The position numbers were made by a program, and so were the translations under genes. Below are positions 50,201 through 50,887 of a stretch of DNA of 64,000 nucleotides, in pieces. Under the pieces are notes generated by a model. It searched no databases, was not told the DNA's origin, and saw nothing but the letters and a program-made list of their open reading frames with translations. How positions within the stretch are numbered: position 1 is the first letter of the stretch; the number at the start of each line of letters is the position of its first letter. Source of the DNA: Alphaproteobacteria bacterium. Its GTDB lineage: Bacteria; Pseudomonadota; Alphaproteobacteria; Acetobacterales; Acetobacteraceae. The stretch is taken from NCBI GenBank assembly GCA_026400815.1, contig JAPLOI010000009.1:1-64000 (forward strand), read 5' to 3'.

Positions 50201-50412
50201 CCGCGCCGGAGCCGGTTGTCGCTGCCCCCGTGGCCGTGGAACCGCCTCCTGCCGCCGTCGTGCCCCCGCCGGCCGCACCCGAGCCTGCGCCGGAGCCCGC
50301 CGCGGCGCCCGACTCGGCCGCACCCGCGGTTGGCCCGGCGATCAAGCCGATCGTCCTCGGTGCCGATCCCGTGCCCGTGGCGGCCCCCAAGCGCGGCTGG
50401 TGGAAGCGCTGA
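47203..50412 (+). CDS. rne: Ribonuclease E/G
   Basis: 1069 residues. The S1 domain begins near residue 35 and is split by a charged insert of ~180 residues (about 95-270) that contains a GRDG tandem repeat (~129-147). The catalytic DNase I-like domain has D494 (AIDVNSGRST) and D537 (IVIDFIDM). The Zn-link is C595-P-H-C598. The C-terminal third is an unstructured Arg-rich and Pro/Ala/Val-rich scaffold for the degradosome, ending PKRGWWKR. RNase E cleaves single-stranded RNA in mRNA decay and rRNA/tRNA maturation. Start is ATG 47203 (MTKRMLIDATH). A strong hairpin follows (50446-50488). Confidence 0.93.
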   Translation: MTKRMLIDATHAEETRVVVLDGNRLEDFDVEASTKKQLKGNIYLAKVVRVEPSLQAAFVEYGGGRHGFLAFGEIHPDYYQIPIADRQRLLKLQEEDARAAEAEEDAEDEARASRAAPAEAAPQPQVPSGRDGGRDGGRDGGRDGGRDQARGRRRRRGGPREAALEAPASATAYGEIDFGEVTHGAFIVGQDAPEIDGVAEPEAEPQSQALEAPAYAETESFDAADSQSDTGGDSDLDEVESDEAPPEALGGSDDVFEGNGADEASERRMARFLRNYRIQEVIRRRQIMLIQVVKEERGTKGAALTTYISLAGRFCVLMPNSPRGGGISRKITSAADRRRLKEITAELEIPSGMGLIVRTAGANRPKPEIKRDCEYLMRLWDDIRELTMRSMAPALIYEEASLIKRAIRDGYSRDIDEVVVDGEAGWRAARDFMRMLMPSHARKVQLWRPEGVGQPLFAKHGVEDQLDSMLVPNVQLKSGGYLIINQAEALVAIDVNSGRSTRERGIEETALRTNLEAADEVARQLRLRDLAGLIVIDFIDMESRKHNAMVERRLKDALKHDRARIQIGNISHFGLLEMSRQRLRPSLTETSFVTCPHCAGLGLVRTTESAAIHVLREIEEEGGKARAGHIMVHAASSVAMYLLNNKRDRLAEIEVRYGMRVHFSADESLMPPAIRIDRLRPPLSEAERIALLPPASVVPVPPPAFEADEDDDMAEDAPDVAEAVAPPPKPVAAPVVTAPVVAAPVVAAPVVVVAADDSDSEDEREEGEPGQEAATSAEDAERRRRRRRRRRGGRREDGEESPAAAAEAEAPLDPDAEQPIPALPPVLAEVEPAVAEAVVDPAEQEQPALDPEELDENGLPKARRRGRRGGRRRRRDDGTADESAEAAPPAEPAPVAAAPVPAPVPAPAPAPRPAPAPAYSGPTPADPFGGLPSDIFDILERAEMAEQAPPPRRAPAPAPEELKIPPVPADATPPADIIPEPAPEPVPEPVPEPVAVVVAPAPEPVVAAPVAVEPPPAAVVPPPAAPEPAPEPAAAPDSAAPAVGPAIKPIVLGADPVPVAAPKRGWWKR

Positions 50413-50445: not shown

Positions 50446-50488
50446 ATCGGCGGCCATGGCGAAAAAATCGCCATGGCCGCCGATTTTT
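50446..50488 (+). terminator. rne rho-independent terminator
   Basis: A perfect 17-bp stem, ATCGGCGGCCATGGCGA / TCGCCATGGCCGCCGAT, encloses an A5 loop and is followed by TTTTTCTT. It is one of the clearest intrinsic terminators in the window. Confidence 0.9.
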
Positions 50489-50540
50489 CTTGTGCGGCGC
50501 AGCAGCGAAGGGGCACGCTGCCCTTGGTCTTCAACAACTG

Positions 50541-50556
50541 AAAGGAGGTGATCCAG
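50541..50556 (+). promoter_or_regulatory. Extended ribosome-binding site complementary to the 16S 3' end
   Basis: AAAGGAGGTGATCCAG matches the reverse complement of the bacterial 16S rRNA 3' terminus (CTGGATCACCTCCTTT) over 16 nt. The core AGGAGG is 7 nt from the GTG start at 50556. Such length is unusual; most genes here show 4-6 nt. Confidence 0.8.
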
Positions 50557-50627
50557 TGTCTCATTGCTCTTGGTGCCGTATGACTGGCGCGACCTGGGTC
50601 TCTGTCTCCCTCACGGTGGCAGGGTAA
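50556..50627 (+). CDS. Candidate 23-residue small protein, function unknown
   Basis: The frame reads MSHCSWCRMTGATWVSVSLT plus VAG, starting at GTG. It holds a C4-x2-C7 pair with an adjacent Trp and a hydrophobic end. Support: the 16-nt anti-SD-complementary site with ideal spacing, a preceding strong terminator (50446-50488) that separates it from rne, and its own terminator 36 nt downstream. No downstream gene on this strand could be regulated by it, so it is unlikely to be a leader peptide. Alternatives are a small RNA that sequesters the 16S tail, or a chance frame. No family is recognised, and conservation was not tested. Confidence 0.5.
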   Translation: MSHCSWCRMTGATWVSVSLTVAG

Positions 50628-50662
50628 TCTCCGTCCGACAGCTTACGGCTGCCAGACAATGG

Positions 50663-50697
50663 AAGGCCTCGGGGGCAACCCCGGGGCCTTCGCTTTT
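50663..50697 (+). terminator. Rho-independent terminator of the small gene
   Basis: AAGGCCTCGGGG pairs with CCCCGGGGCCTT (one T-G wobble) around a GCAA tetraloop, followed by CGCTTTT. It defines the 3' end of the 50.54-50.70 kb unit. The remaining 50698-50833 holds nothing recognisable. Confidence 0.8.
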
Positions 50698-50833: not shown

Positions 50834-50863
50834 AAAAAGGGCGGCCCCTGCGGGCCGCCCTTT
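50834..50863 (-). terminator. atp operon rho-independent terminator
   Basis: AAAGGGCGGCCC / GGGCCGCCCTTT is a perfect 12-bp stem with a CTGC loop. On the minus strand it ends in TTTTT, 25 nt after the atpF stop. Confidence 0.85.
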
Positions 50864-50887
50864 CGTCGTTCGATCAGTCGTGGTGGG

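Follow-up and report, generated by a model that had tools for sequence, protein, structure and literature searches.

A small RNA of Alphaproteobacteria with a conserved open reading frame and a ribosome-binding site complementary to the 16S rRNA tail

What could be the role of a very short gene, enclosed between two terminators, whose ribosome-binding site complements the 3′ tail of 16S rRNA far beyond the few nucleotides usual in the same DNA? The question was raised by an initial annotation, made from sequence alone, of a 64,000-nucleotide stretch of an Acetobacteraceae genome (assembly GCA_026400815.1, contig JAPLOI010000009.1, positions 1 to 64,000; the window). It proposed either a highly translated micropeptide or an RNA that titrates 30S subunits. 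We compared the gene with ~255 homologues.

The locus, its ribosome-binding site and its family

The gene occupies ~170 nt of the plus strand between the rne terminator and convergent ATP synthase genes (Table 1). The rne gene ends at 50412 and is closed, as had been claimed, by a strong terminator (stem 50446-50484); the second intrinsic terminator is present too, and so are the GTG start and the 23-codon frame behind the anti-Shine-Dalgarno match. The elements follow each other in the order putative promoter, CAACAACTGAAAGGAGGTGATCCAG, GTG-started ORF with the product VSHCSWCRMTGATWVSVSLTVAG, and intrinsic terminator, which supports the description of a self-contained gene with a translated-looking ORF. 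The CxxC pair pointed out in the peptide lacks conservation, most relatives retaining the first Cys codon only, or none.

Table 1. Features of the gene in the window
Feature	Position	Strand	Basis or remark
Putative own promoter: TTGTGC 50490-50495, 18 nt, CACGCT 50514-50519	50490-50519	+	Inferred only
CAACAAC of 5′ leader, conserved	50532-50538	+	Column profile; Rfam CC2171 consensus cAAcaA
Extended Shine-Dalgarno (SD) block GAAAGGAGGTGATCCAG	50540-50556	+	Perfect complement of 16S 3′ tail
Small ORF, 23 codons: GTG start 50556-50558, TAA stop 50625-50627	50556-50627	+	
P1 helix, 5′ strand CATTG (codons 3-4)	50562-50566	+	Compensatory changes with 50657-50661
16S-tail mimic CTGGGTC (codons 13-15, peptide TWV)	50594-50600	+	Could pair with GATCCAG 50550-50556
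P1 helix, 3′ strand CAATG, immediately 5′ of terminator	50657-50661	+	Compensatory changes
Intrinsic terminator: stem 50662-50691, T-rich tail	50662-50697	+	
Full-length match to the Rfam RF01867 (CC2171) model	50532-50689	+	72.8 bits, E 4.8e-15

Terminator-like sites were found 3′ of the ORF in 197 of the 255 homologues (32 of 255 for shuffled sequences). A near-copy of the gene's terminator hairpin (97%, 30 bp) is located elsewhere in the host assembly (G000:C84:36995-37024) and occurs also in sister genomes; a separate strong terminator at 50835-50864, T-tailed on the minus strand, belongs to the convergent ATP synthase b-subunit genes. For the putative promoter, the −10-like CACGCT reads CAGGCT in genus relatives, CTTGTG or CTTGCG together with GGCAGGCT is kept in the genus 3′ of the rne terminator, and the class-level column profile shows, at the distance seen in the genus, a weak −10-like peak rich in A/T; a sigma-70 consensus scan of the locus did not find a promoter.

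The match to the 16S tail, initially given as 16 nt, extends to 17 nt, and its last G also opens the GTG start codon. Exact copies of the 16-mer are limited to this one, both in the window and in the whole 5.1-Mb assembly. The 16S 3′ end is absent from the host assembly (G000), and the reference tail was that of a sequenced alphaproteobacterial 16S (L308, confirmed by cmscan; 3′ end GGCTGGATCACCTCCTTTCT) from a genome that also has a homologue of the gene (L237). The duplex between SD block and tail has an energy of −32 to −35 kcal/mol, whereas among 39 other long ORFs in the window the strongest duplex reaches −19.5 kcal/mol and the median is −9.7 kcal/mol; the claim that this SD is out of the ordinary for its DNA is thus borne out. 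A stray piece of 16S could be ruled out, as the match stops after 17 nt and the flanks are not rRNA. Among the homologues the block that complements the free 3′ tail of 16S rRNA, GAAAGGAGGUGAUCC, is almost invariant; in 138 of them we counted 28 substitutions in the SD block, 20 of which preserve pairing via G-U, while seven of the eight that break pairing fall at the two ends of the block. Changes of this kind fit pairing with 16S, or with the mimic of its tail described below, alike. Both the near-invariance of 15-17 nt that complement the free tail in full, with their large pairing energy, and the retention of pairing as G-U would suit a ribosome-binding RNA that acts without elongation, either by sequestering 30S subunits or by pairing with the 16S 3′ end in maturation or hibernation, the ORF being tolerated; the reading frame, considered in the next section, bears on this possibility.

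The segment matches Rfam family RF01867 (CC2171), listed as a 'Caulobacter sRNA' of unknown function, and spans the complete model (positions 1-159 of 159). Its score is under the gathering cut-off of 75 bits, so that the Rfam search of the window at the gathering threshold gave no match and the family was seen in E-value mode only. The cut-off is a strict one, since just 13 of the 85 genomes with a class-level match pass it. The window copy carries the feature set of the family, namely the invariant 5′ block (CAACAA..GAAAGGAGGUGAUCCAGUGUCUCAUUG), the P1 helix and the terminator behind it. The Rfam entry describes a non-coding sRNA, whereas we find a conserved ORF, a complement of the 16S tail and potential pairing between SD and mimic. 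The family reportedly originates from work by Landt in 2008.

RF01867 detects 85 of the 385 alphaproteobacterial genomes sampled; a simple pattern detects 91, with a single copy in each, one genome excepted. G310 has two copies (G310:C1:805112 and G310:C1:2922049) with different peptides, MSHCHALN.. and MSHGSAKG.. No paralogue or repeat of the gene was found in the host genome, and a plasmid search produced no match to it. Carriers belong to Sphingomonadales, Rhodobacterales, Rhizobiales, Caulobacterales and Rhodospirillales/Acetobacteraceae. The RNA is nearly absent from other Pseudomonadota and from outside Alphaproteobacteria, where matches to AAGGAGGTGATCTGATG stand 5′ of ordinary genes. 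Rare look-alikes exist in Gammaproteobacteria (L325, L327 and L329, which form one family, and L326); they have UAAGGAGGUGAUC, which fits the gammaproteobacterial 16S tail (...CCUCCUUA), followed by ATGTC, an ORF of 18 or 11 codons and a terminator, most of them with a CCCCTT-like anti-SD behind the stop. The later look-alikes came from a T-anchored pattern, and the tail match there is partly due to selection of the hits.

In the literature searched, CC2171 appears only as a name; translation, 16S complementarity and switching are undescribed. According to Schrader 2014 (PMC4117421), Caulobacter ncRNA regions are mostly untranslated, with two of the earlier predicted ncRNAs being translated; CC2171 could be one of these two.

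Selection on the frame and on the peptide

To characterize the frame we used 68 class-level homologues gathered without regard to start codon. The start position is occupied by ATG (33), GTG (31) or TTG (4). The frame runs to a stop at codons 14-36 in 67 of the 68 sequences; the same holds for 19 sequences in each of the other two frames, and for 22.8 shuffled sequences on average (maximum 33). In 51 of 64 disjoint close pairs the stop is at the same codon, 22 of those with a different stop codon (binomial p ~4e-8 versus 20%), and in 12 more pairs the stops are no more than three codons apart. UAA, UAG and UGA are therefore swapped at one position. The motif CTGG[AG][TC]C, situated at nt 35, 38 or 41 from the start, is in one frame in 52 of 54 cases, so that indels comprise whole codons; in a seeming exception (L216) an inserted A turns GTG into ATG and leaves the frame unchanged. 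The ORF has 14 codons in Bradyrhizobium and 18 in Sphingomonadales and Rhodobacterales; most Acetobacteraceae and many Rhizobiales have 21-26. These comparisons are good support for translation of the ORF in nature. The kept stop position, the exchange of stop codons and the in-frame indels are left unexplained by ribosome binding without elongation, which we consider unlikely.

Selection on the peptide looks different. Changes in 71 disjoint pairs are distributed nearly equally over codon positions (193/200/159), and the synonymous fraction is 0.317 versus 0.277 for random placement (p 0.14). By group this fraction scatters around the expectation (0.20 versus 0.285 in Sphingomonadales, 0.35 versus 0.28 in Acetobacteraceae). 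The amino-acid sequence thus has no sign of purifying selection; what selection keeps is the start, the frame and the stop. The micropeptide proposed initially stands in part: its frame is kept across the class, but the synonymous excess expected of it is missing.

An ordinary small gene, strongly translated into a micropeptide of ~14-30 residues that has a lineage-specific sequence and acts in the cell, would account for the conserved start, frame and stop and for the lineage-typical peptides that can be recognized (VSHC..TWI, MSHGSA..RR, VSRVILERGVGT, MSSDF, VSxxKRCHLAGIAR). Still, no group has a synonymous excess, several of the seemingly conserved motifs overlap segments paired in the RNA, and searches of Pfam and NCBIfam returned no match; we regard such a gene as improbable. 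By inspection the peptides are short, mostly polar and non-conserved, unlike the hydrophobic membrane peptides of type I toxins. The gene resembles dual-function sRNAs (SgrS/SgrT, RNAIII/hld, SR1, Spot 42) in being a small terminator-ended RNA with an ORF that selection holds as a frame; in those the peptide acts, whereas purifying selection on the amino-acid sequence was not found here.

RNA structure and neighbouring genes

Since automated alignment of the variable middle yielded poor consensus folds, both pairings described here were tested by words, without a global alignment. The P1 helix forms between codons 3-4 and the stretch immediately 5′ of the terminator. The partners correspond in 98 of 103 cases for CATTG-CAATG, 35 of 38 for CATGG-CCATG and 10 of 13 for CATCG-CGATG; the sixth pair is T-A in 53, C-G in 24 and T-G in 11, and is mispaired in 8. 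Conservation of P1, with clear compensatory changes, is well supported at the level of sequence comparison.

The second, potential pairing is between the SD-to-start region and a copy of the 16S tail (the mimic) that most lineages have inside or behind the ORF. The partner differs between lineages: CUGGAUC..GCCUCC within the ORF in Acetobacteraceae and many Rhizobiales, CGGAUUGCCUU in Mesorhizobium relatives, CUGGGAUCGCC in Bradyrhizobium, and CUGG..CAUCUCCUUG behind the ORF in Rhodobacterales. Compared with shuffles, the pairing energy has a mean z of −1.3 to −2.1 in five of six groups and is weak (−0.5) in Sphingomonadales. Covariation with the mimic motif is seen for the base preceding the start codon, which is paired in 72 of 112 sequences (permuted mean 56, maximum 69); neither the permutation nor the Fisher tests account for shared ancestry, which inflates them, and the direction is consistent. 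In the minimum free energy fold of the window RNA much of the SD is unpaired and the mimic hairpin is absent. If formed at once, mimic hairpin and P1 would make a pseudoknot. A cis-paired ribosome site with a possible pseudoknot at the start is found also in SD-sequestering mRNAs and pseudoknotted ribosome sites of the rpsO entrapment type; the difference is that here no ribosomal protein gene follows and that the complementarity of the site extends over the whole 16S tail.

A classical trans-acting base-pairing sRNA with incidental ORF-like features would agree with the cataloguing of the family as an sRNA in Rfam, with the terminator and with the conserved structure. The statistics of frame, start and stop argue against it, and inspection of the variable middle revealed no class-wide seed except the SD or 16S-mimic segments; we give this explanation very little credence.

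The next gene in the window, for ATP synthase b, converges on the RNA, and by rough gene calls the downstream neighbours of the homologues are on the same strand in 82 cases and on the opposite strand in 89, and differ in kind. Such mixed neighbours rule out a leader of a shared downstream gene, in agreement with the earlier remark that there is no downstream gene to regulate. A gene placed behind the RNA on its own strand, as an attenuator would need for a target, is seen only for many Rhodobacterales: arfB, for the alternative ribosome-rescue factor with a GGQ motif, follows the RNA directly or ~1 kb on in 16 of 20 loci of this order (L127, L158, L161 and L080 among them). In one Hyphomonadaceae locus (L114) arfB is divergent and on the other side of the RNA. 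A leader-peptide attenuator of the next gene would draw on the succession of ORF, terminator and arfB in Rhodobacterales and on the arfB adjacency in Hyphomonadaceae; elsewhere, the variation of downstream genes in kind and strand and the convergent neighbour in the window speak against it, and we think it quite improbable. Attenuators of the trpL type do share with the gene a strong SD, a very short ORF, an intrinsic terminator and a structure that translation would rearrange; they differ from it in that here there is no common downstream gene, there are no runs of regulatory codons and P1 is clear of the terminator stem. The arfB neighbourhood in Rhodobacterales hints at a connection with ribosome supply or stalling.

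A possible reader of 30S availability

The reading that we favour, with a probability of roughly 0.5, is that CC2171 is a stand-alone RNA of ~170 nt which is translated, whose ribosome site switches between the RNA's own 16S mimic and the real 30S subunit, and which in this way reads 30S availability. Comparative evidence supports its translation and structure well; the output in the cell is what we infer. As to how it would operate, a tentative suggestion, which we hold with less confidence, is that the RNA senses free 30S subunits through strand invasion by the 16S tail and subsequent translation of an ORF with a meaningless peptide, being a complement and, in most lineages, also a mimic of the tail. 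The 5′ part of the SD, left open, could be a toehold for the tail; the 3′ half with the start codon, bound by the mimic, could be the branch-migration arm. A free 30S subunit would invade by its 3′ tail, oust the mimic and then translate, melting P1. In lineages with the mimic inside the ORF, a ribosome at the fixed stop would sit near the mimic and hold the RNA open. As there is no common downstream gene, the output has to lie in the RNA itself or in ribosome occupancy; it could be the state of the RNA, through its stability or the exposure of anti-SD/3′ segments. The peptide would be a by-product of switching, translation being the switching act.

A family catalogued as 'non-coding' is thereby re-read as translated, and it would offer a rare clear case in which the act and the end point of translation are under selection and the product is not. 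Its class-wide SD of 15-17 nt, far past what initiation needs, amounts to a natural test of strong SD pairing. The gene is single-copy and present in model genera, which makes it easily tested, and its RNA may act as a reporter of ribosome supply.
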